Positions 1,139-12,058 of a stretch of DNA of 12,283 nt are shown here, piece after piece (position 1 is the first letter of the stretch; each line of letters begins with the position of its first letter). The position numbers were made by a program, and so were the translations under genes. The DNA comes from Candidatus Delongbacteria bacterium (GTDB lineage Bacteria; UBA4055). The notes beneath the pieces were generated by a model. That model was not told where the DNA came from. It was given only the letters and a program-made list of their open reading frames with translations, and made no database searches. The stretch spans positions 1 to 12,283 of the forward strand of contig WTAK01000486.1 of NCBI GenBank assembly GCA_013139625.1, written 5' to 3'.

Positions 1139-1340
1139 CTACATACTCCAAAGTCAAACTTAATATTAATTACTTGATAAAATACTTAATTTATTGTTCG
1201 TTTTCAAGTTAATTTTATTTGAAATCTTTTACCTGTTTTTTACGAACATAGAATCAAACTAAATTCTAAGTGAATTTGTTCCTTTATTTTTCGATTTCTT
1301 TTATATATATTTTTACCAAATTATATCTTGGGGAACATTA
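1139..1340. promoter_or_regulatory. Divergent intergenic region between ugd and the Gfo/Idh gene
   Basis: About 200 very AT-rich bases separate two divergently transcribed genes, so promoters for both must lie here, but I cannot assign convincing -35/-10 pairs. A 7-bp inverted pair, TGTTCGT (1195-1201) and ACGAACA (1242-1248), is separated by 40 bases and might mark an operator, but it could be chance. I see no other open frame, RNA gene or riboswitch-like fold. Confidence 0.5.
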
Positions 1341-2417
1341 ATGAAAAATTATAAATTTGCTTTGGTTGGATGTGGCAGAATATCTGGTAAGCATATAGAT
1401 GCAATAAATGAAATTGAAAATACTAGTATTGTCGCAGTTTGTGATATAAATATCGATAAAGCAAAGGCAACTGCAGATAAAATAGGGGATATTAACTTTT
1501 ATTCAACATATGATGAAATGCTGCAGAATGAAGATATTGACATTGTAAGTATTTTAACTCCAAGTGGTTTGCATGCAGAGCAAACGATTGATATAGTCAA
1601 AAAATATAAAAAGCATATGGTTGTCGAAAAACCTATGGCTTTAAAACTTGAAGATGCAGATGAGATGATTAAAGTGTGTGATGCTAATTCGGTCAGATTA
1701 TTTGTTGTTAAGCAAAACAGATATAATTTGCCAGTCCAAAAACTAAGACAAGCCGTTGAAAATGGAAGCTTTGGGAAAATGGTCATGGGTACTGTTAGAG
1801 TACGATGGTGCAGACCTCAAGAATATTATGACATGGATGCTTGGAGAGGTACTTGGGAATTAGATGGTGGAGTAATAACAAATCAGGCTTCTCATCATAT
1901 TGATCTTCTAGAGTGGATGTTAGGTGAGCCGATTTCTGTAATGGCAAAAACAAAAACATATTTATCAGATATAGAAGTTGATGATACAGCAGCAGCAATT
2001 ATAAGCTTTGAGAATGGATCAATGGGAATTGTTGAGGCCACAACTGCAGTAAGACCGAAAGATCTTGAAGGATCTTTGAGTATCTTAGGAGAAAATGGAA
2101 GTGTTGTTATCGGTGGATTTGCGGTAAATAAAATGGAAACTTGGAACTTTAAAGATACATCCGAAGAAGAAAGTAAAAAAATTGTTAAAAAATATTCTGA
2201 ATTACCTCCGAATGTATATGGATTTGGACACCAAAGATATTTAGAGCATGTAATAGATTGCATAGAAAACAATAAACAAGCTCTAGTTGATGGTTTTGAG
2301 GGTAGAAAATCACTTGAACTTATTAATGCAATGTATGAATCTGCAGAAACAGGTAAAGAAGTATTTTTAAGATTCCATCCAAATAAATCAAGACTTGGAA
2401 AAAAAGTAGAGAGATAA
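1341..2417 (+). CDS. Gfo/Idh/MocA family oxidoreductase, likely nucleotide-sugar dehydrogenase
   Basis: A 358-residue NAD(P)-dependent sugar dehydrogenase of the Gfo/Idh/MocA family, cytoplasmic. The N-terminal Rossmann fold is marked by ALVGCGRISGKH (7-18) and the acidic strand end VCDIN (33-37); the family EKP motif is at 96-98 (K97 is the expected catalytic lysine); the C-terminal substrate domain has DGGVITNQASHHIDLLEWMLG (about 175-195), containing the usual histidine/aspartate pair. The segment around WCRPQEYYDMDAWRGTW (156-172) resembles members found in surface-polysaccharide loci, such as the WbpB/WlbA-type UDP-GlcNAc-uronate 3-dehydrogenases, but I cannot fix the substrate. Divergent placement next to ugd supports a UDP-hexuronate or related sugar. 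A purine-rich GGGGA motif precedes the ATG. The yggS gene starts three bases after the stop, so it probably heads a five-gene operon. Confidence 0.85.
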   Translation: MKNYKFALVGCGRISGKHIDAINEIENTSIVAVCDINIDKAKATADKIGDINFYSTYDEMLQNEDIDIVSILTPSGLHAEQTIDIVKKYKKHMVVEKPMALKLEDADEMIKVCDANSVRLFVVKQNRYNLPVQKLRQAVENGSFGKMVMGTVRVRWCRPQEYYDMDAWRGTWELDGGVITNQASHHIDLLEWMLGEPISVMAKTKTYLSDIEVDDTAAAIISFENGSMGIVEATTAVRPKDLEGSLSILGENGSVVIGGFAVNKMETWNFKDTSEEESKKIVKKYSELPPNVYGFGHQRYLEHVIDCIENNKQALVDGFEGRKSLELINAMYESAETGKEVFLRFHPNKSRLGKKVER

Positions 2418-2420
2418 CTT

Positions 2421-3122
2421 ATGATCAAAGAAAATTTAAAAACAGTAAAAGATCGAATAAGGAAAGCTTGTAAAAAAGTTGGGAGAGATCCGGAAGGTAT
2501 TACTTTGGTCGCAGTCTCAAAAACTTTTCCAGTAAAGGTTAACTTATATTCTTATGAATCTGGGCAATATATTTTCGGAGAAAATAAGATCAGAGATCTT
2601 GTTATAAAGAGTGAACTTCTCCGAGAGAGTGAATATGAAAAAGTACAATGGCACATGATCGGTCATTTGCAGTCTAATAAAGCTAAACTTGTAGCTGAAC
2701 ATGTAAATCTGTTCCATTGCTTAGATTCATTAAAATTAGCAAAGAAATTAAATGAACATAGCAAGAAATTAGATAAGATCCTTAATGTATTGATCCAAAT
2801 TAACTCAAGCAGAGAAGAAAGTAAATCAGGGTTATTACCTGAAGAATTGTCAGATTTCATTCAATCTTTGAAAGGTCTTGAGAATCTTAAAGTAATCGGT
2901 CTAATGTCAATTGGGATGTTCAATAAAGATCCCGAAGATTCCAGAGATGATTTTAAATTTATGAAAGGTTTGTTTGAAAGGATAAAAGAAACGAAGTTGC
3001 CATCAAATTGCGAAATGAAGAATTTATCAATGGGAATGAGCCATGATTTTGAAGTTGCAATAGAAGAGGGAGCAGACATCGTAAGAGTTGGCACGGATAT
3101 TTTTGGGAAAAGGAAAGTATGA
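2421..3122 (+). CDS. yggS: YggS/PLPBP-family pyridoxal phosphate homeostasis protein
   Basis: A 233-residue single-domain alanine-racemase-like TIM barrel that binds PLP but has no known catalytic activity; the family (YggS, YlmE, PROSC/PLPBP) controls free PLP and amino-acid/keto-acid balance. Family marks are AVSKTFP with the PLP Schiff-base lysine at residue 34, FGENKIRDL (52-60), the hallmark WHMIGHLQSNKAK (77-89), NSSREESKSGL (128-138), GLMSIG (160-165) and the C-terminal phosphate-binding stretch LSMGMSHDFEVAIEEGADIV followed by RVGTDIFGKR. Length is normal for the family. It lies three bases after the upstream stop and its own TGA overlaps the yggT start as ATGA, which indicates translational coupling. 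It is the only complete gene in the window that ends in TGA. Confidence 0.94.
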   Translation: MIKENLKTVKDRIRKACKKVGRDPEGITLVAVSKTFPVKVNLYSYESGQYIFGENKIRDLVIKSELLRESEYEKVQWHMIGHLQSNKAKLVAEHVNLFHCLDSLKLAKKLNEHSKKLDKILNVLIQINSSREESKSGLLPEELSDFIQSLKGLENLKVIGLMSIGMFNKDPEDSRDDFKFMKGLFERIKETKLPSNCEMKNLSMGMSHDFEVAIEEGADIVRVGTDIFGKRKV

Positions 3123-3661
3123 GAGTATTTCAATTATTTCACACCCTCTTAGTTATTTTAATATTTGCAAGATTGATAATGCCGTTATTAGGTATGAATC
3201 ATGGACAATTATATAGTTCAGTGTATTTTTATTCTGAGAAAATATTGGCACCGGTCAGAAAACTTCTGCCAAGGTCTTCAATAGATTGGTCTCCGTTCGT
3301 TGCATTGATTCTATTGAATTTAATAATGTCATTTCTGCTTCCTGTAATTACTTTAGCAGTTCAGGGTGATTTTGAAGGTGTGATGTATTTATCAGCAGCA
3401 AACATATTATCATTGATCTCATCAATTTCAACTTTTTTTATGATAATAGTTATAGTTAAAATTGTTAACGATCATGTAAATGGTCAATATTCAGGATTAA
3501 CGCATTTTATTAACTCAATAACATTAAAACCAATGAGATTTGTAAGGCAGTATTTACCAAACAATATAAAAAAATATACTGCTTGGGTTTTATTAGCACT
3601 AATAATTGTCTTAAAAATTGTAACTCAAAGATCGATCGAGAATTTTTTACTGAATTTTTAA
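3119..3661 (+). CDS. yggT: YggT/YlmG family membrane protein
   Basis: A 180-residue integral membrane protein of the YggT (YlmG/CCB3) family, linked in other organisms to cell division, membrane organisation or osmotic tolerance, with no known biochemical activity. Two YggT repeats can be read. The first runs from a membrane helix at about 5-24 through SEKILAPVRKLLPRSSIDWSP (39-59) to a second helix (about 57-80); the EP-LxPxRxxxP plus D-x-SP pattern is the family signature. The second repeat has a helix at about 95-117, a weaker copy LKPMRFVRQYLP (136-147), and a final helix at about 154-170. Two repeats are also seen in E. coli YggT. It overlaps yggS by four bases, the classic yggS-yggT pairing. 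Confidence 0.85.
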   Translation: MRVFQLFHTLLVILIFARLIMPLLGMNHGQLYSSVYFYSEKILAPVRKLLPRSSIDWSPFVALILLNLIMSFLLPVITLAVQGDFEGVMYLSAANILSLISSISTFFMIIVIVKIVNDHVNGQYSGLTHFINSITLKPMRFVRQYLPNNIKKYTAWVLLALIIVLKIVTQRSIENFLLNF

Positions 3662-3694
3662 TAAATTTCTTAAGCATTCACAAAGGGATATAGC

Positions 3695-4201
3695 ATGACT
3701 TTAAAAAGAGATAAAATAACTTCAAAACAATTTGGCAAATCAGTCAGGGGTTATGATAAGATAGAAGTTCAAGCATTTCAAGAATGGATCGCTGATGAAT
3801 ATGATACTTTGAGGATCCGTAATATTGAGTTGGAAAAAAAGATAGAAGACTACGAAAAAGATTATGAGAAGTATGAAAAAGAAAAAGAAAATTTTAAGCA
3901 AGAGCAAATTCAAGCAAAGAAAGATATCGACAGGTTAAAAAGAGAGACCACTAAAGAATGTGAAATTGCTAAAAGTGAAGCAAAAATGAATGCTCAAAAT
4001 GTTCTGAAGGATGCTTATACTCAGACAAAAGATCTTCAGAATGATATTGATAAATTAAAAAAGATTAAACAATCATTTATAAAAAGATACTCAAATATCC
4101 TTAGAGACCAGCTTGATACACTTAAAGTATTTCAAAGAGAATTTCTCCCCGGAGAAGATTCTGTTAAGATCACTTCAAAACCTACATCTAAAAGACACTA
4201 A
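3695..4201 (+). CDS. divIVA: DivIVA-domain coiled-coil protein
   Basis: A 168-residue cytoplasmic protein with an N-terminal DivIVA domain, the membrane-curvature-sensing module that recruits division or polar-growth proteins. Residues 8-25 (ITSKQFGKSVRGYDKIEV) align without gaps to the B. subtilis DivIVA lipid-binding segment; R18 and GYD (19-21) are kept, while the membrane-inserting F17 position is a valine, still hydrophobic. From about residue 33 to 145 the sequence is highly charged heptad-like coiled coil rich in Glu and Lys, interrupted near 90-105. The C-terminal tail from 153 is short, basic and probably disordered. A purine-rich AAAGGGAT motif precedes the ATG. It follows yggS and yggT in the same order as the Gram-positive ylmE-ylmG-divIVA cluster. 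Its role here in division or polarity is inferred from family and context. Confidence 0.85.
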   Translation: MTLKRDKITSKQFGKSVRGYDKIEVQAFQEWIADEYDTLRIRNIELEKKIEDYEKDYEKYEKEKENFKQEQIQAKKDIDRLKRETTKECEIAKSEAKMNAQNVLKDAYTQTKDLQNDIDKLKKIKQSFIKRYSNILRDQLDTLKVFQREFLPGEDSVKITSKPTSKRH

Positions 4202-4204
4202 ACT

Positions 4205-4840
4205 ATGCATGATGTTAACTCACTAAAGTTATTATCAGACAAATTGATAAAATCAATTAGTTTCATTCCTGAAAAGGTTGAAATATTATCAAAGCTATGG
4301 CATGGGGTCTCCGATGGATTAATTCAGATTGATATTGACCTAGAAAGCTTAGTGAATCATAAATTTTATATTAATAAAGATTCAAAAAAAAAGCTATATG
4401 TTTTCTGGGATCATAATTCAATAGATAAGAACCTAAAAGACTTTTTTACAATTTTGATCAGGGTTCTAAAATTTTCAGGGACGACCGACATTTTAGTGTT
4501 CGATGAATGTTTGTCGTTGTCTAATGTTAAGGATGATGTCATTGGTATTTCTGACCATATAAATTTTACTTCAGATAATCCATTGATCGGTATTAATGAT
4601 GAAGAGGTAGGTACAAGATTTCCTGATATGAGTTATGCTTACTCAGATAGCTATTCTGGAAGGTTTGGTAAAATAAGAAAAGTTATCTTAGCCGGAGTTG
4701 AAGATATTGATCTTTCAGAAAGAAAATTATCTTTAATAAAATTAAGTGAAGCCGAAGTTTATAATTTTTCAGTGATGTGGATGAATATTTTAGCGGTGCA
4801 TTCCAGAATCAAATTCTCTGCTATCTGTAAAATCAAATAA
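4205..4840 (+). CDS. Degenerate purine nucleoside phosphorylase-like protein
   Basis: A 211-residue protein without a confident annotation. Residues 113-146, with DHINFTSDNPLIG (117-129) and GTRFPDMSYAYS (136-147), closely match the conserved core DHINLxGxNPLxGPN...RFxDMSxAY of trimeric purine nucleoside phosphorylases (about 270 residues). Working outward, H70 in FWDH falls at the GRxH histidine, but the arginine is replaced; the GPxFETPAE stretch becomes AGVEDIDLSE (163-172), losing the catalytic glutamate; and the chain ends at FSAICKIK, where the family has the base-binding TN pair, so that asparagine is a lysine. The N-terminal phosphate loop (GSGLG) is also not visible. I infer a PNP-fold protein that has lost catalysis. 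It starts three bases after divIVA with no clear Shine-Dalgarno, so it is probably translated by coupling. Alternative: a decaying pseudogene, although the frame is intact. Confidence 0.6.
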   Translation: MHDVNSLKLLSDKLIKSISFIPEKVEILSKLWHGVSDGLIQIDIDLESLVNHKFYINKDSKKKLYVFWDHNSIDKNLKDFFTILIRVLKFSGTTDILVFDECLSLSNVKDDVIGISDHINFTSDNPLIGINDEEVGTRFPDMSYAYSDSYSGRFGKIRKVILAGVEDIDLSERKLSLIKLSEAEVYNFSVMWMNILAVHSRIKFSAICKIK

Positions 4841-4854
4841 AAGATACAACATAT

Positions 4855-4929
4855 CCGTAGGGACGACCCTTGTGGTCGTCCGGACACATGGATGATATAA
4901 GTGGGCGACCACAAGGGTCGCCCTTACGG
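4855..4929. repeat. 75-bp nested inverted repeat, REP/MITE-like
   Basis: Two GC-rich arms of about 27 bp (4855-4881 and 4903-4929) are near-perfect reverse complements, both beginning CCGTA on their outer side. Each arm is itself a hairpin: GGACGACC/GGTCGTCC (4861-4868, 4874-4881, loop CTTGT) and GGGCGACC/GGTCGCCC (4903-4910, 4916-4923, loop ACAAG). The unpaired centre is about 21 bases. The element contrasts sharply with its AT-rich surroundings, contains no gene, and sits 15 bases after the PNP-like stop codon. It resembles paired REP/BIME or small MITE elements. Confidence 0.8.
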
Positions 4930-5027
4930 TTTATTGTTTTTTACATTTTATAGATTTTATTTGCTTTTAAATTTTAAAATATTATCTTCTTAAGACTCTA
5001 AATTATCTTATGAAAATTTAAATAAAA

Positions 5028-5033
5028 AAGGAG
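5028..5033 (+). promoter_or_regulatory. Ribosome binding site that decides the rocD start
   Basis: AAGGAG is followed directly by ATGAAAATG. The ATG at 5034 would touch the Shine-Dalgarno, whereas the ATG at 5040 has a six-base spacer, identical in arrangement to the fba gene in this window. The start at 5040 is therefore preferred. Confidence 0.8.
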
Positions 5034-5039
5034 ATGAAA

Positions 5040-6242
5040 ATGTTGAGCTCAAAAGAAATAATGGAACTGGACAACAAATATGGTGCACACAACTATCACC
5101 CTCTTCCTGTCGTAATAGCAGAAGCAGAAGGTGTAATGGTTAAAGACCCTGAAGGTAGAGAGTATTTTGATTTTCTATCAGCTTACTCAGCAGTAAACCA
5201 AGGTCACAGAAACCCAAAGATCATCAATGCTTTGATCGAGCAAGCAGGTAAATGTACTTTGACTTCAAGAGCATTCCACAATGACGTAATGGGAAAATTC
5301 CTTAAGAAGCTTTGTGAATTTACAGGTTACGAAATGGCTTTACCAATGAACACTGGTGCTGAAGCTGTTGAAACTGGTATCAAGCTTGCAAGAAGATGGG
5401 GAGTTGAAGTAAAAGGTATTGAGAATGGGAAACAAGAGATAATCGTTGCAGAAGAGAACTTCCACGGAAGAACTACTACAATAATTTCTTTCTCTACTGA
5501 TCCTGATGCAAGAACTAACTACGGACCTTATACTCCTGGTTTTAAGATCGTTAAATATAACGATGCAAAAGCTTTAGAAGATGCGATCACTCCAAATACT
5601 TGTGCAATACTTCTTGAGCCTATTCAAGGAGAGGCTGGTGTTTATGTGCCTTACGATGGATATCTGAAAGATGTGAGAGAGATCTGTACAAAACACAATG
5701 TTCTTTTCATAGCGGATGAAGTTCAAACTGGTTTCTTAAGAACAGGCGAGAGATTTGCTGTGAATCATGAGAATGTAAGACCTGACGTTATGACTTTAGG
5801 TAAAGCTTTAGGTGGAGCTGTAATACCTGTATCTGCAGTTGTTGCTGACAAAAAATTCATGAAAGTATTTACACCTGGTTCTCACGGGTCAACTTTCGGT
5901 GGTTATCCTATAGCTGCTGCAGTTGGCATCGCTTCATTAGAAGTTCTTGAAGATCCAGAATTGAAGAAAAGTGTTCAAGACTTAGGAGAATTCTTCAGAG
6001 CAGAACTTAAGAAGATCAATTGTGATAAGATCGTTGAAGTTAGAGGTAAGGGACTTTTAAATGCGGTTGTATTTGTAGATAATTTTGAAGCATGGGATGT
6101 TTGTATAGCTCTTAAAGATGCTGGTTTACTTGCGAAGCAAACTCATGGTAATATCATTAGATTTGCGCCACCATTGGTTATTACAAAAGGTGAAATTGTA
6201 AAAGCATTAGATATTATCAAAACGGTTTTTGAGAAGTTTTAA
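5040..6242 (+). CDS. rocD: Ornithine aminotransferase
   Basis: A 400-residue PLP-dependent class III aminotransferase that converts ornithine and 2-oxoglutarate to glutamate-5-semialdehyde and glutamate, linking arginine/ornithine and proline metabolism in the cytoplasm. The match to B. subtilis RocD extends over the whole length: YGAHNYHPLPVV near the N-terminus, DFLSAYSAVNQGHRNPKI, LTSRAFHND, the PLP phosphate loop PMNTGAEAVE, NFHGRT, EPIQGEAG, FIADEVQTG with the cofactor-binding aspartate, LGKALGG with the Schiff-base lysine at residue 255, and GSHGSTFGG, ending with RFAPPLVI. The HGSTFGG and NYHPLP elements favour ornithine aminotransferase over acetylornithine aminotransferase. It has its own strong ribosome site and an AT-rich leader after the 75-bp repeat, so it is probably transcribed alone. 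C-ending codons (TTC, AAC, ATC) look commoner than in its neighbours, which may reflect high expression. Confidence 0.94.
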   Translation: MLSSKEIMELDNKYGAHNYHPLPVVIAEAEGVMVKDPEGREYFDFLSAYSAVNQGHRNPKIINALIEQAGKCTLTSRAFHNDVMGKFLKKLCEFTGYEMALPMNTGAEAVETGIKLARRWGVEVKGIENGKQEIIVAEENFHGRTTTIISFSTDPDARTNYGPYTPGFKIVKYNDAKALEDAITPNTCAILLEPIQGEAGVYVPYDGYLKDVREICTKHNVLFIADEVQTGFLRTGERFAVNHENVRPDVMTLGKALGGAVIPVSAVVADKKFMKVFTPGSHGSTFGGYPIAAAVGIASLEVLEDPELKKSVQDLGEFFRAELKKINCDKIVEVRGKGLLNAVVFVDNFEAWDVCIALKDAGLLAKQTHGNIIRFAPPLVITKGEIVKALDIIKTVFEKF

Positions 6243-6252
6243 TAATCAATTC

Positions 6253-6284
6253 CGTAAAGACGTGATTCATCACGTCTCAGAACG
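6253..6284. repeat. AGACGT-type hairpin repeat, copy 1
   Basis: The stem AGACGTGA/TCACGTCT (6258-6265, 6270-6277) encloses the loop TTCA. It is flanked by CGTAA on the left and CAGAACG on the right, so the outer CGT/ACG can also pair. The same frame, CGTAA-AGACGT...ACGTCT-CACG, recurs in inverted orientation at 11044-11073 with a different centre. Confidence 0.7.
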
Positions 6285-6285
6285 C

Positions 6286-6318
6286 AAAAAGGGTGATCAA
6301 ATGATTACCCTTTTTTTT
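6286..6318. terminator. Bidirectional terminator between rocD and the winged-helix gene
   Basis: The stem AAAAAGGGTGATCA (6286-6299) pairs with TGATTACCCTTTTT (6302-6315) with one G-T wobble, and a T run follows to 6318. On the opposite strand an A run becomes a T run, so it can stop transcription from both convergent genes. The stop codon of the minus-strand gene (6317-6319) lies within the T run. Confidence 0.85.
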
Positions 6319-6619
6319 ACCTTCCCAACATCCTCTCTAACCGTTCGACATATTTTTTAAAAGCTTCTTTTCCTTTCTTAGTCAGCTTATATTTAGTTAA
6401 AGGTTTTCTATCAACGAATAGTTTTTCAACTGAGATATATCCGGCAGTTTCGATTTTTTTTATATGAACACTTAGATTTCCATCTGTAGCTTTCACATTT
6501 TGTTTTATAAAATTAAAGTCAGCTTCTTCCACACTGATAAGAACGGACATGATCGCAAGTCTTATCCGGGAATGAATAATGTCATCTAATTGCTTATAAT
6601 CAAATTCTGATTCAGGCAT
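6317..6619 (-). CDS. Winged-helix transcriptional regulator (HTH_34 type)
   Basis: A 100-residue single-domain winged-helix DNA-binding protein of the small HTH_34-like group (ArsR/MarR-related, Pfam-style name from memory). LDDIIHSRIRLAIMSVL (11-27) is the first helix region; EEADFNFIKQNVKATDGNLSVHIKKIETAGYI (31-62) forms the helix-turn-helix with the recognition helix around DGNLSVHIKKIE; VEKLFVDRKPLTKYKLTKKGKEAF (64-87) gives the beta wing and the start of the dimerisation helix. No ligand or metal cysteines are present. It starts one base after the stop of the membrane-protein gene, so the two are translationally coupled. Regulators of this type often accompany a membrane protein and probably control their own operon; the signal sensed is unknown. 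Confidence 0.85.
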   Translation of the reverse strand: MPESEFDYKQLDDIIHSRIRLAIMSVLISVEEADFNFIKQNVKATDGNLSVHIKKIETAGYISVEKLFVDRKPLTKYKLTKKGKEAFKKYVERLERMLGR

Positions 6620-6620
6620 A

Positions 6621-7256
6621 TTATTTACCCGCAGAATTTAATTTCGATCTTCTGTAATATTTTATCCCTGGAATGATCTGGAATAAGATCATCATAAGTG
6701 CAAAAATTGGGAATGTATTATAACTTTTCATGTAGAACAGAACTATTCCACCTATCCACCAGCCGTATGCTAATCTCGTTGTAAATTTACAGTCGTTAAT
6801 AGATCCTGTAACGTAGTATGAGATACCCAGTATCAGAGAGATCACAGGAGTAATGGCCATAGAATTAATGATATAAGGATAAGGAATAAAATCTGAAATA
6901 TCCCTTTTATATTGAATTGTGCAAACCAAGGCAATTATGGTCATTGTAATACCGGAAGCACTCCAAAGGGCATTCTGTACTTTCAATCCGAAAGTTTCAG
7001 GCATATTCTTCTTCTTTACATTTCTGGCACTTAAATAAGAGTAAGTCCAACCTGATACCAGGATAAAACCCCATACATATAGTGTATAGTTCCAGTTATG
7101 GTTTATTCCGCTGAAATAATTTGTCATGATACCAATTACGACAATAATTCCCCAGATCACACTGGAAAGGCCGCTATCTTCAACTTTTTCTCTACTGTCT
7201 TTGATTATATTCTTGATGAATTCAAGTTCCAGTTCTGCTTTGTTTTTTTCTTCCAT
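6621..7256 (-). CDS. Six-helix membrane protein paired with the winged-helix regulator
   Basis: A 211-residue integral membrane protein of unknown function. A charged, helical cytoplasmic segment (1-30, rich in E and K) precedes six likely membrane helices at about 31-48, 58-75, 95-114, 128-150, 161-177 and 181-199, with basic connecting loops (NVKKK at 79-83) and a basic tail (YYRRSK). I see no transporter or enzyme motif. AAGGA lies seven bases before the ATG. The downstream winged-helix gene begins one base after its stop, so the pair is a module; the membrane protein may sense or respond to an envelope state that the regulator controls. This role is inferred only from context. Confidence 0.75.
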   Translation of the reverse strand: MEEKNKAELELEFIKNIIKDSREKVEDSGLSSVIWGIIVVIGIMTNYFSGINHNWNYTLYVWGFILVSGWTYSYLSARNVKKKNMPETFGLKVQNALWSASGITMTIIALVCTIQYKRDISDFIPYPYIINSMAITPVISLILGISYYVTGSINDCKFTTRLAYGWWIGGIVLFYMKSYNTFPIFALMMILFQIIPGIKYYRRSKLNSAGK

Positions 7257-7285
7257 GATGTATCCTTCTTTAATTGTTTTAAAAG

Positions 7286-7310
7286 AGGGGAGGGTTAGAA
7301 ACCCTCCCCT
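7286..7310. terminator. GC-rich palindrome after the lipoprotein gene, terminator-like
   Basis: A perfect 11-bp stem, AGGGGAGGGTT/AACCCTCCCCT (7286-7296, 7300-7310), has the loop AGA. On the minus strand it begins 10 bases after the lipoprotein stop codon and is followed by CTTTT, so it could terminate or attenuate transcription before the membrane-protein gene. On that strand it is preceded by TTGT and reads TGTAGGGG, matching the outer sequence of the repeat at 10995-11022. Confidence 0.7.
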
Positions 7311-7320
7311 ACAATTATTT

Positions 7321-8499
7321 TTAATCCATTGTTAATTCGAATACTTTGATCACTACATCTGCCTTTCCGCCTTCGCTGTAATTTTGCTCTATTGGAGTAG
7401 CAGCGATAAGATATTTCCCTTTAGCTCTGATCTTAAATCCTGCAAGTTCAGGTACTGCAACAGTTTTCAAAAAATGTCCCTGATCATTAAAGACATCAAA
7501 CTCTTGTCCTTCTTCTTTGAACATGCTTTCATTTACAGTTACCCAAAGATTATTTTTGCTGTCAATGAACATCTGAGTGATTGCACTCCGAAGGTTTGAA
7601 ACTTCTTTAAATTCAATCATCCCGCCCATATTTTTCTCTACTTTGTCCAAAGCTTCCTGAATACCTTCCATATCTTCTTTTGATCTTCTGAGAGGAGCAT
7701 ATTTTTTCTTTATTTCTTTGAGCCTTTTTCCACTGTAGTCATATTGATAGATTACATATTTATTCTTTGAAGTATCGGCGATATAAATATTTTCACCGGA
7801 TATCGCAGTTAATAGTCCTTGATCATCAGCATCAACATTTTTCATGTCAAACGGCTTAGTGTCTCCGGCAATTTTATCTTTAATATCATATTCAGATGTG
7901 CCGTTATATAAGCAAGTACCCATTTTAAAATCATTTGTACCCCATTGACCTTCAAAAACTTCACATCCAAACAATGGACCTTGATCAGTATAATAAAAAT
8001 TCTTTGCTCGGACAGCTCTCTTTGAAATATTATAGAACTTGATGAAATTACCATCCAGATCAAAAATTGACAATCTACCTGATCCATCAAATACATGAAC
8101 TTTATTTGTAGAGCTTACAACACTGATATCAATTGGGCTACTTGGGAATTCTCCGGGACCTTGACCTTTTGCTCCCCATTGACTCAGATATTTACCGTTC
8201 TTGTCAAATTTGAGTATGAATGATTTTACATTATCGACAACATAGAGGTTACCTTTATCATCTAGATCTGAGTTAAGGTCTGCTCTGTGCTGAGGAAAAT
8301 TTAATACGAAAGTCGTATCCTCGTCAGAGTTTTCAACTGTCATGATGTGCTGGATCTTATAAGTAAGATCTTTTTTTATTCCTTCCTTTGTGTTCTCAAT
8401 TATCTTTACACCGTCAACAATGGTTTCGATGTATGGTTGTTCTTTTGAGCATGAGAGAAGAAGGAGTGATGCCACGAGTAATGTTATTAGAGTTTTCAT
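7321..8499 (-). CDS. Six-bladed beta-propeller (NHL-like) lipoprotein
   Basis: A 392-residue predicted lipoprotein. The N-terminus MKTLITLLVASLLLLSC has a signal peptide with a lipobox LLSC, placing the lipidated cysteine at residue 17. The body reads as repeated propeller blades: LYVVDNVKSFILKFDKNGKYL (85-105) followed by GAKGQGPGEF (109-118), a typical loop of 6-bladed propeller/NHL lipoproteins; VHVFDGSGRLSIFDLDGNFIKF (134-155); IYIADTSKNKYVIYQYDYSGKRL near the middle; and LWVTVNESMFKEEGQEFDVFNDQGHFL near the C-terminus. Propellers of this kind usually bind ligands or proteins at the cell surface or in the periplasm; the partner is unknown. Its ATG shares one base with the stop of the upstream TPR gene (TAATG), and AAAGGA lies seven bases before the ATG. 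Confidence 0.83.
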   Translation of the reverse strand: MKTLITLLVASLLLLSCSKEQPYIETIVDGVKIIENTKEGIKKDLTYKIQHIMTVENSDEDTTFVLNFPQHRADLNSDLDDKGNLYVVDNVKSFILKFDKNGKYLSQWGAKGQGPGEFPSSPIDISVVSSTNKVHVFDGSGRLSIFDLDGNFIKFYNISKRAVRAKNFYYTDQGPLFGCEVFEGQWGTNDFKMGTCLYNGTSEYDIKDKIAGDTKPFDMKNVDADDQGLLTAISGENIYIADTSKNKYVIYQYDYSGKRLKEIKKKYAPLRRSKEDMEGIQEALDKVEKNMGGMIEFKEVSNLRSAITQMFIDSKNNLWVTVNESMFKEEGQEFDVFNDQGHFLKTVAVPELAGFKIRAKGKYLIAATPIEQNYSEGGKADVVIKVFELTMD

Positions 8500-9362
8500 T
8501 ATAGTTCCTTTAGTAGTTTTTTATATTCATCATCAGGGTTTATTTTGATAGCTTTCGCGATAGATTCCTTAGCTTTATTCTTATCACCTTTAAGTTGATA
8601 TATCTGTGCAAGTCTCCAATAAGCTCCATCTAACGAAGGTAAAGGGTGCTCAGGCTTATATTTAAGATATTCAGTGAGAGCTTCTATACCTTTATCAAGG
8701 CTCTTTTTAGAGAACACTGCATTCCTGCCAACTTGATAAAGTGATTCTAATGCTTTTGGATCAATGGATAAAGCTTTTTCAAAGTTACTCAATGCTTTGT
8801 CGTAGTCTTTTGTCTGCTGGTGCATTATCCCGATCGAATAATATGTATGAGCATTATTTGGATCGAGTTTTATTAGTTCGTCATACTCTGCGAATGCTTT
8901 GCCATACTCTTTTTCCTGAGAATAAAACTGAGCTTTGATCTCATGACCTTTGACAGGGGAGAGTTTAGCTACTTTTTCTGTAAGCTCCCAAGCCTTATCC
9001 TTATCACCACCGGCAATATAAGGAGCATTAAAGTAAAATGAAGCTAGATAATATATTGCATCAATGTTCTTAGTATCTTTTTTGATACTTAATTTGAGAT
9101 ATTTTTTTATCTTAGACGAATAAAGACCTTTACTCATAAAGTTTACATTGTTGATATCAGCTAGGTATGATTTTGCCAACCAGAGATATAGATCTGAATT
9201 ATTTTCATCTTTTTCTACTGCTTTTTTGTACCAATCGATAGCATTGTCGTAATCTTTATTATCATAGAATACTTTTGCTGTTTTTGCTTCCTGTGAATCT
9301 TTAGCGATCAGTGAGAATATTAATACTCCCATGATGATGAGTGTGAGTAATTTGCGTTTCAT
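8499..9362 (-). CDS. Secreted TPR-repeat protein
   Basis: A 287-residue protein with a probable N-terminal signal peptide or anchor (MKRKLLTLIIMGVLIFSLIA, cleavage near residue 20) followed by tetratricopeptide repeats. Repeats can be read at about 23-55 (AKVFYDNKDYDNAIDWYKKAVEKD in part), 99-136, 138-170, 171-204 (the clearest, with YYSIGIMHQQTKDYDKALSNF and AL-IDP), 205-240 and 245-279. The stretch around SKGLYSSKIKKYLKLSIKKD (77-96) is a less regular helical pair. TPRs hold protein partners; none is identifiable here, but the one-base overlap with the propeller lipoprotein gene suggests the two act in one envelope complex. GGGA precedes the start by five bases. No enzymatic domain is visible. 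Confidence 0.82.
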   Translation of the reverse strand: MKRKLLTLIIMGVLIFSLIAKDSQEAKTAKVFYDNKDYDNAIDWYKKAVEKDENNSDLYLWLAKSYLADINNVNFMSKGLYSSKIKKYLKLSIKKDTKNIDAIYYLASFYFNAPYIAGGDKDKAWELTEKVAKLSPVKGHEIKAQFYSQEKEYGKAFAEYDELIKLDPNNAHTYYSIGIMHQQTKDYDKALSNFEKALSIDPKALESLYQVGRNAVFSKKSLDKGIEALTEYLKYKPEHPLPSLDGAYWRLAQIYQLKGDKNKAKESIAKAIKINPDDEYKKLLKEL

Positions 9363-9513
9363 TTTGTTCCCTTTAATTTAATTTCGTAAAGTACTTTGTT
9401 TTATAAAGTGAAGATACGAAGATTGTTTTTTGTTGTCAAGTATTTTGTTTCAATTTAGAGAAAAATTTCGTAAATTAAGAGTTCATTATTAATACATTAT
9501 ATAGTAGGTCAAA
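9363..9513. promoter_or_regulatory. Divergent intergenic region between the TPR gene and purB
   Basis: About 150 AT-rich bases must hold promoters for both the minus-strand operon and purB. TTGTCA (9433-9438) is a possible -35 for purB, but the matching -10 (TAGAGA, 17 bases on) is poor, so I do not assert it. I see no purine-riboswitch-like or other RNA structure. Confidence 0.4.
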
Positions 9514-10947
9514 ATGAAAGATCAAACAATTTATCAAAATCCACTTATCGAGAGATATTCATCAAAAGAAATGAGTTATATTTTTTCTCCTGAGAATAAA
9601 TTTAAGACTTGGAGGAAGCTTTGGATAGCTTTGGCAGAATCTGAGAAAGAACTTGGGTTGAATGTTACTCAACAGCAGGTTGATGAGCTTAAGAAATATG
9701 AAGATACTATAAATTATGAAGATGCTATTGCCAGAGAGAAGATAGTTCGTCATGATGTTATGAGCCATGTTTATGCTTACGGATTACAATGTCCATTAGC
9801 TAAGCCGATCATTCATTTCGGAGCAACTTCTGCTTTTGTAGGTGATAACACGGATCTTATTCAGCTGAAAGAAGGTATCACAGAAGTTAAAAAGAAATTA
9901 TTAGTCCTTATTTCAAGAATAAAAAACTTTGCTTTATCAGAGAAGGATCGCCCAACTTTAGGTTTTACACATTATCAGGCAGCTCAGATAACGACTGTTG
10001 GTAAAAGAGCATCTCTTTGGTTGAATGAATTTATCTTAGACTTTGAAGAACTTGAGCATAACTTGGAGTCATTAAAGTTTCGAGGTGTGAAAGGAACTAC
10101 CGGAACTCAGGCATCTTTCATGTAGCTTTTTGAGAACAATGAAGATCAGGTTAAGAAACTTGACGAACTTGTCACAGAGAAATTGGGTTTTGACAAGAAG
10201 TACATAGTCACAGGTCAGACTTACAGCAGAAAAGTTGATTATAAAGTATTATCTCTGTTATCAGCAATAGCACAGTCTGCTCATAAGACCACAAATGATA
10301 TAAGATTACTTCAGAGCTTAAAAGAGATCGAAGAACCTTTTGAAAAAAGTCAGATCGGATCGTCCGCAATGGCTTACAAAAGAAATCCTATGAGATCTGA
10401 ACGCGTAGCATCACTTTCAAAGTTTGTAATGTCACTTACAACTTCAGTGGCAATGACAGCTTCAACTCAATGGTTCGAAAGAACTCTAGATGACAGTGCA
10501 AATAAAAGACTTTCTGTTCCGGAAGCTTTTTTAGCTATAGATGCAATTTTGATTATTTTAAATAATATTTTTGACGGAATGGTAGTTTACCCTAAGCAGA
10601 TCGAAAAAAGACTTCAATCTGAAATTCCTTTCATGGCAACTGAGAATATTATTATGAATGCTGTGAAGAAGGGAGGGGATAGACAAGAACTTCATGAGAA
10701 GATCAGGGAACTTTCAATGATAGCAGGTAAGAATGTAAAAGTTGAAGGTCTTGAGAATAACCTATTAGATCTTATCGCTGAAAATCCATCTTCTAATCTT
10801 TCTATGGATGAGCTTAAAGAGATGACTGATCCTAAGTTATATATCGGGAGAGCACCTAGTCAGGTTGTTGAATTTATTAAAGATATCGTTGATCCTATTT
10901 TAGCGAAGAATGTAGTAGAAGATGTCGATATTGAATTAAAGGTATAA
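9514..10947 (+). pseudogene. purB: Adenylosuccinate lyase with a single in-frame TAG at codon 204
   Basis: Adenylosuccinate lyase acts twice in purine synthesis, splitting fumarate from SAICAR and from adenylosuccinate. The reading frame covers 477 codons, the length of the human-like class (about 484), and is intact except for a TAG at 10123-10125. Similarity to ADSL is strong on both sides: IIHFGATSAFVGDNTDL (His101), GFTHYQAAQITTVGKR (His153), GVKGTTGTQASFM before the stop, then LFENNEDQVKKLDELVTEK, TGQTYSRKVD, the signature IGSSAMAYKRNPMRSE (281-296) with the catalytic serine, and WFERTLDDSANKR. The active site draws on both halves, so a truncated 203-residue product should be inactive. 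No ATG restart exists just after the stop. It may be a recent nonsense mutation, an error in the sequence, or a gene read through by a suppressor tRNA; otherwise the gene looks under selection. Confidence 0.9.
10123..10125 (+). other. In-frame amber codon inside purB
   Basis: TAG stands where many ADSL relatives have Gln, Glu or another polar residue in the motif TQASF-(L/M)-x-LF; CAG, AAG and GAG are each one base away. The frame continues without shift on both sides. Confidence 0.95.
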
Positions 10948-10952
10948 TCGTA

Positions 10953-10976
10953 GGGGAAGGCTCCCACGCCTTCCCT
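10953..10976. repeat. GTAGGGG-type hairpin after purB, copy 1
   Basis: The stem GGGGAAGGC/GCCTTCCCT (10953-10961, 10968-10976, ending in a G-T pair) has the loop TCCCAC. It begins five bases after the purB stop and is preceded by CGTA on its outer side. It lacks a following T run, so it is repeat-like rather than a typical terminator. Confidence 0.65.
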
Positions 10977-10997
10977 AATCGTGTAATTAAAAAATGT

Positions 10998-11028
10998 AGG
11001 GGACGATTTCTTTTCGTCCCCTTTTTTT
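10998..11028 (+). terminator. GTAGGGG-type hairpin with T run, probable purB terminator
   Basis: A perfect 9-bp stem, AGGGGACGA/TCGTCCCCT (10998-11006, 11014-11022), with a loop of TTTCTTT is followed directly by a run of T to 11028. It is a good intrinsic terminator for purB. The outer TGTAGGGG matches the palindrome at 7286-7310 read on the minus strand. Confidence 0.8.
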
Positions 11029-11043
11029 ATTTAAAATTTGTTT

Positions 11044-11073
11044 CGTGAGACGTAGCAGTGCTACGTCTTTACG
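11044..11073. repeat. AGACGT-type hairpin repeat, copy 2 (inverted)
   Basis: The palindrome AGACGTAGCA-G-TGCTACGTCT (11048-11068) has outer CGT (11044-11046) and ACG (11071-11073). Read on the minus strand it begins CGTAAAGACGT and ends ACGTCTCACG, the same frame as the repeat at 6253-6284 but with a different centre. It starts two bases after the fba stop codon on that strand and may also help end fba transcription. Confidence 0.7.
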
Positions 11074-11074
11074 A

Positions 11075-12058
11075 TTAATACCTGTCCGCAGATCCCAAGA
11101 CATTACGATTTTTATTTTTTATCATTTCCTTCAACTCATCTCTAGCAGGTCCAAGATATTTTCTAGGATCGAATTCTCCAGGTTTTTCAGTTAAGACTTT
11201 TCTAACCAAAGCAGTCATTACCATTCTACCATCAGTATCAATATTGATCTTACATACAGCTGATGTTGCTGCTTTTCTAAGTTGCTCTTCAGGAACTCCT
11301 ACTGCATTACCCATATCTCCACCATACTGCTTGATCATTTCAACATACTTTGGAAGTACTGATGACGAACCATGAAGTACGATCGGGAATCCCGGTATTC
11401 TTTTTTCACATTCTTCAAGAATATCAAATCTAAGTGGTGGTACTGATTCTCCGGGGCCTAATTTGAATTTGTAAGCACCGTGAGAAGTTCCAATTGAAAT
11501 TGCAAGGCTGTCAACGCCTGTTTTCTTCACGAAATCCTCAACTTCTTCAGGTTTTGTGTAGCTGCTTGTTTCATGAGAGACTTCATCTTCGATACCTGCT
11601 AATACTCCAAGTTCCCCTTCAACAGTCACATCTCTAGGATGAGCATATTCAACGACTTTTTTTGTTAAAGCAACATTTTCATCATAAGGTAAGCTTGAAC
11701 CGTCGATCATTACAGATGAGAAGCCATTGTCGATACAGCTTTTACAAAGTTCGAATGTATCACCATGGTCTAAATGTAAAGCGATAGGAATATTCGATCC
11801 TAATTCGTTCTTTGCCATGTCAGCAGCACCCATTGCCATATAGCGCAACAAAGTTGAGTTTGCGTAATTTCTTGCACCTTTCGATACTTGGATTATTACA
11901 GGTGATTTTGATTCGATACAACCATAGATGATAGCTTGAAGTTGCTCAAGGTTATTGAAATTATAAGCAGGAACTGCATAACCGCCATCCATTGCTCTTT
12001 TGAACATTTCACGAGTGTTAGAAAGTCCGATATCTTTAAAACTGATTGTTTCCGACAT
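11075..12058 (-). CDS. fba: Class II fructose-bisphosphate aldolase
   Basis: A 327-residue zinc-dependent aldolase that interconverts fructose 1,6-bisphosphate with dihydroxyacetone phosphate and glyceraldehyde 3-phosphate in glycolysis and gluconeogenesis. The chain carries YAVPAYNFNNLEQL (27-40), HLDHGD (95-100) with the catalytic aspartate 97 and zinc ligand His98, VEGELG (146-151), SIGTSHGAYKF (188-198) with zinc ligand His193, LHGSSS (228-233) with zinc ligand His229, and the phosphate/substrate motif KINIDTDGRM (270-279), ending with FDPRKYLGPARDELKEM. All expected catalytic residues are present and the length is typical. AAGGAG (12065-12070) stands six bases before the ATG. The gene is convergent with purB, with hairpins between them, and has an IS element inserted about 110 bases upstream. 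Confidence 0.95.
   Translation of the reverse strand: MSETISFKDIGLSNTREMFKRAMDGGYAVPAYNFNNLEQLQAIIYGCIESKSPVIIQVSKGARNYANSTLLRYMAMGAADMAKNELGSNIPIALHLDHGDTFELCKSCIDNGFSSVMIDGSSLPYDENVALTKKVVEYAHPRDVTVEGELGVLAGIEDEVSHETSSYTKPEEVEDFVKKTGVDSLAISIGTSHGAYKFKLGPGESVPPLRFDILEECEKRIPGFPIVLHGSSSVLPKYVEMIKQYGGDMGNAVGVPEEQLRKAATSAVCKINIDTDGRMVMTALVRKVLTEKPGEFDPRKYLGPARDELKEMIKNKNRNVLGSADRY

Follow-up and report, generated by a model that had tools for sequence, protein, structure and literature searches.

An in-frame TAG in the purB gene of a Candidatus Delongbacteria draft genome: probably a base-level assembly error

PurA and then PurB convert IMP to AMP, and the product of purB is normally needed for the synthesis of both AMP and IMP. 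What, then, is a TAG codon doing in the middle of the purB gene of a Candidatus Delongbacteria bacterium? The stretch of DNA analysed here (the window, 12,283 nucleotides; contig WTAK01000486.1 of assembly GCA_013139625.1) belongs to a draft genome, G000, that totals 2,614,506 bases on 486 contigs, with 88.26% completeness and 3.03% contamination. A preliminary description, made from the letters of the window, had reported a lone in-frame TAG in purB without a frameshift and had offered three readings: a base error, a very recent nonsense mutation, or a TAG translated as an amino acid. Our analysis indicates that this codon calls for nothing beyond an ordinary explanation, either an error in one base or a mutation that is fresh and local.

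The purB frame and its internal TAG

The purB frame lies on the forward strand and extends over 477 codons from an ATG at 9514 to a stop at 10945–10947. An uninterrupted frame, as expected of PurB, is lacking at codon 204, where a TAG at 10123–10125 forms the single interruption. The first part (codons 1–203, positions 9514–10122) matches positions 1–193 of the TIGR00928 model, and the second (codons 205–477 plus the stop, positions 10126–10947) matches positions 194–434, so that the two pieces hit adjoining stretches of the same model. When the frame was read through the TAG, it scored 388.3 bits, above the cut-off of 326.2; taken singly, the pieces of 203 and 273 amino acids reached 165.5 and 214.7 bits, both below it. 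Alignment to the genes of the same genus revealed no frameshift or indel over the 1434 bases. The lone TAG and the absence of a frameshift are thus confirmed.

A search of the draft (486 contigs, 88.26% complete) for a second purB returned one match in total, the gene described here. The end of the window is 2160 bases away from the TAG, which is thus not at a contig end. Most of positions 1258–10947 aligns with a contig of a genome of the same genus (G001:C18), in blocks of 74%–85% DNA identity, which assigns the contig to the Delongbacteria lineage, and the best-scoring named PurB matches (among the best 120 of 7,996 scored) carry the name Candidatus Delongbacteria.

Two further features of the locus were recorded. 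In a comparison with the PDB, for which the protein of a close relative served as the query, PurB (9514–10947) scored 555 bits with adenylosuccinate lyases of the animal type and at most 142 with those of the Bacillus/Thermotoga type; we take the matched entries to be human and bacterial adenylosuccinate lyases. Downstream of purB, at 10950–11080, there are three short G+C-rich inverted repeats, of which a 44-base part (10993–11036) recurs with 93% identity in a same-genus stretch (L153, 11271–11313), resembling a small interspersed repeat.

Codon 204 in relatives

In both genomes of the same genus, G001 and G002 (92% protein identity), codon 204 is GAG. Ten genomes of the same family lie beyond the genus; nine of them gave a purB match and eight were readable at codon 204, the match in G008 covering the gene end only. 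These eight have Glu in five cases and Lys (G003), Ser (G007) and Ala (G004) in one each. Among 80 loci taken from 593 confirmed ones, with one motif per locus, the residue at the site was Glu in 75, Asp in three and Ser in two, and none had a stop there. The most identical protein in the best 120 of 7,996 scored, P0040 (354 residues, encoded on a different contig), is 97% identical over 74% of the length and has Glu at the site, while the two best-matching solved adenylosuccinate lyases, presumably both human, have Gln. An internal stop in purB was found in the gene's own match only, among the 56 genomes with a match (61 searched, its own included). The site tolerates several residues, and in the material examined the TAG is private to the G000 assembly. 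The suggestion in the preliminary description that the site tolerates Gln, Glu or Lys holds, with Ser and Ala added from the family and Asp from the wider loci; a sense codon in close relatives, which it had named as evidence against recoding, is what G001, G002 (GAG) and P0040 (Glu) have.

The gene on either side of the TAG is constrained. Measured against G001, dN/dS was 0.050 before the TAG and 0.059 after it; against G002, the values were 0.066 and 0.055. No decay of purB, in the form of indels or relaxed constraint, was seen in comparison with these two genomes, although a very recent stop would look alike. The absence of decay is as compatible with a very recent mutation as with an error.

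Constraint on both parts, together with the 254-codon open frame that follows a TTG at 10183, would also be consistent with a split gene, in which translation of the second part restarts at this TTG and its product joins the first piece to form a functional PurB. We regard such an arrangement as highly improbable, given that the other genomes with a purB match have no internal stop, that none occurs at the site in the 80 loci, that a restarted second piece would be without residues 205–223, and that the constraint is equally expected from a new stop or an error. A split gene with a TTG restart was seen in no relative examined.

Stray stops across the draft

A gene-by-gene census compared 81 contigs of G000, among them the window (463,967 bases in all, 18% of the draft), with 59 stretches of G001 (831,724 bases). 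Open reading frames of G001 of at least 100 amino acids that matched at 60% identity or more defined a set of 85 genes with 30,697 codons. Two clean mid-gene stops were found in these 85 genes of G000, the purB TAG (codon 204 of 477) and a TGA in purA (codon 295 of 425), as well as one frameshifted gene. The reverse census in G001 (91 genes, 31,773 codons) revealed no clean mid-gene stop. The raw count in G000 was six stop codons, of which four were set aside as artefacts of gene ends or as part of the frameshifted gene: one at residue 8 of 687 in L271, one at residue 196 of 202 in L267, and two in the overhang of the frameshift in L269. Three genes were flagged as spanning more than one frame; for two of these the cause seems to be hits on copies that are repeated or related. 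Two raw stop codons were set aside in the reverse census, at residue 8 of 454 and at residue 32 of 323, the latter in a gapped stretch before a conserved methionine.

The purA TGA lies at 7870–7872 of L271 (G000:C135). A family model confirmed the gene as purA, encoding adenylosuccinate synthetase, with one internal TGA, and the gene is uninterrupted in relatives. The stop is about 50 bases from the contig end. Three relatives have glycine at this site, and nine codons beyond it G000 has alanine where the same three have proline. The frameshift lies at about 2415–2472 of L269 (G000:C115), in a gene that forms one 750-codon frame in G001.

Searches with family models added a third stop. An ABC-transporter protein encoded on the minus strand of L274 (G000:C31) has an in-frame TAA near 1233–1235, where both same-genus genomes have GAA; the contig is 4942 bases long, so this stop, too, is away from the contig ends. 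It is the single internal stop among 39 matches to the ABC domain (PF00005) in G000, compared with none of 42 in G001 and none of 45 in G002. No internal stop was detected in any of the three genomes for PF00009 (10 matches in G000, 13 in G001 and 10 in G002), PF00156 (3, 4 and 2), PF02769 (2, 4 and 3) or purH (2, 1 and 2), which makes 0 in 17 matches for these four families together in G000. The excess of internal stops over the relatives is in the expected direction, but the numbers are small, and two versus none in the census does not reach significance alone. If random errors in single bases produced both census stops, the error rate would be about 4 in 10,000 bases, a figure obtained by arithmetic from two events on the basis that about 5% of such errors make a stop, a share taken from the base-difference counts given below. 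Since a TAG in purB, a TGA in purA and a TAA in the ABC-transporter gene coexist in G000, each of the three stop codons is represented among the stray single-base stops of the draft, and TAG does not stand out.

A G-to-T change at the first codon position could account for each of the three stops, an agreement with a probability of about 0.01 were every nonsense change equally likely; in purA, the original codon was inferred, as G001 has a different glycine codon there. Base differences were counted against G001 in 59 genes (22,570 codons, identity of at least 75%). No general excess of G in G001 and T in G000 was found: there were 27 such differences versus 34 in the reverse direction at position 1, and 7 versus 4 at position 2, with 87 versus 97 over all single-base non-synonymous differences. 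Oxidative damage as a source of the stops was considered and set aside, given that there is no general G-to-T excess, although a few errors would drown in such counts.

Recoding, mutation or error

An in-frame TAG in a conserved gene is what UAG recoding looks like, whether by reassignment, by a suppressor tRNA or by pyrrolysine, and in that case PurB would be made at full length. The frame is otherwise perfect, and codon 204 accepts several residues. RF1 scored 487.1 bits in G000 against a cut-off of 423.25, in an open frame that runs to a contig end. The best match to PylS in the 88% complete genome reached 28 bits against a cut-off of 178.15, so that the enzyme is scored as absent. TAG ends 72 of 264 open reading frames of at least 150 amino acids (27%; 81 contigs, the purB TAG itself counted), and 134 of 543 (25%) in the 59 stretches of G001. 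The other clean mid-gene stops in the draft are TGA (purA) and TAA (ABC-transporter gene).

With respect to a tRNA that could read UAG, no CUA anticodon was present in the 18 tRNAs found with the Rfam tRNA model (150 of 166 first-look candidates scored), a set which is incomplete in that it has no tRNA for Ala, Ile, Lys, Pro, Asp or Cys. A pattern for a CUA tRNA, run over the whole genome, matched at 9 places, as against 36 with a reversed control. Two of the nine overlap genes for tRNAs of a different anticodon (in one case on the opposite strand), ARAGORN found no tRNA on the contigs of two more, and one gave none in 101 bases; these checks cover five of the nine matches. The part of the preliminary description's proposal that called for a CUA tRNA therefore found no counterpart in the tRNAs recovered, although the incomplete set and the coverage of five of the nine pattern matches leave it some room.

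Taking these results together, the translation of this UAG as an amino acid has next to no probability in our estimate, and reassignment or pyrrolysine in G000 is very unlikely because RF1 is present, TAG is an ordinary terminator, PylS is absent and the part of the tRNA set that could be examined contains none with a CUA anticodon. The earlier suggestion of a TAG read as an amino acid is unsupported, the more so as stray stops of all three kinds occur in the draft. It may be added that, as stated in the relevant part of an eLife screen (PMC8629427), all bacterial stop reassignments known by 2021 concern UGA. If recoding were true, UAG would have a sense meaning in this bacterial group; the evidence points the other way.

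That the TAG is a genuine nonsense mutation of very recent date, carried by the sampled strain or by part of its population, is possible, albeit on the unlikely side. The rest of purB is intact and constrained, as a fresh mutation predicts; purA is also interrupted, as a lost AMP branch predicts; and three matches to the phosphoribosyltransferase family (PF00156) are candidates for a role in salvage. In its single stop and otherwise intact, constrained frame, the gene resembles a recent strain-specific nonsense pseudogene. Unlike such a pseudogene, however, it specifies a product that is normally needed for AMP and IMP, and the base here may be an error. A sense codon is found in both same-genus genomes and in P0040, a stray stop also occurs outside the purine genes, in the ABC-transporter protein, and the other purine-pathway families searched (a partial set) are without a stop in G000. 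Were the mutation real, it would leave a PurB fragment of 203 residues and a dependence on outside purines.

That two of the three stops fall in one two-step branch would seldom happen by chance alone: the chance that the second census stop hits purA among the remaining 84 genes is about 1 in 84. Given that purA encodes the partner enzyme, we retain a slim chance that both stops are real and that the population lost AMP synthesis only very recently and subsists on adenine compounds from its neighbours.

The purB TAG is probably a base-level assembly error. It is private to this assembly, the relatives have GAG or Glu, stray stops and a frameshift occur elsewhere in G000, and purB is undecayed; the purA stop, close to a contig end and with a nearby change at a conserved proline, favours the same reading. 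The TAG differs by one base, the first, from the Glu codon that the closest relatives have, and purB is normal in other respects. The wrong base most likely came in during a fragmented metagenome assembly, perhaps through low coverage, which is a guess from the fragmentation, and the organism itself would then most likely have an intact purB. Several observations weigh against an assembly error: besides the clustering in one branch, the purB and ABC-transporter stops lie away from contig ends, the census counts are low, the four further families have no internal stop, and there is no general G-to-T excess. The pair of readings put forward in the preliminary description, a base error or a very recent nonsense mutation, is supported as a pair by the GAG of the relatives, the other stray stops and the absence of decay.

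Similar cases have been described in bacterial assemblies. In the part of their study that concerns internal stops, Cooley and Wright (2024; PMC11017572) relate many internal-stop pseudogenes to coverage, platform and assembler, and internal-stop counts there track assembly error. Like the spurious pseudogenes treated in that part, purB in G000 is a conserved gene broken by one internal stop that no other assembly examined shares, and the draft around it contains further stray stops as well as a frameshift. The proof in that study came from reads and reassembly, whereas here it is the assembly sequence alone, with 18% of the genome compared gene by gene, that bears on the question. Such sequence does not by itself separate an error from a real mutation, and our judgement that the base is most likely an error is to be read in this light. 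On premature stops in metagenome-assembled genomes, nothing was found in the literature under the terms tried.

In summary, when an essential gene in a metagenome draft shows one isolated internal stop, the frequency of stray stops in that draft should be considered first. If the purA and purB stops were both real, they would mark the onset of nutrient dependence in a lineage that is uncultivated.
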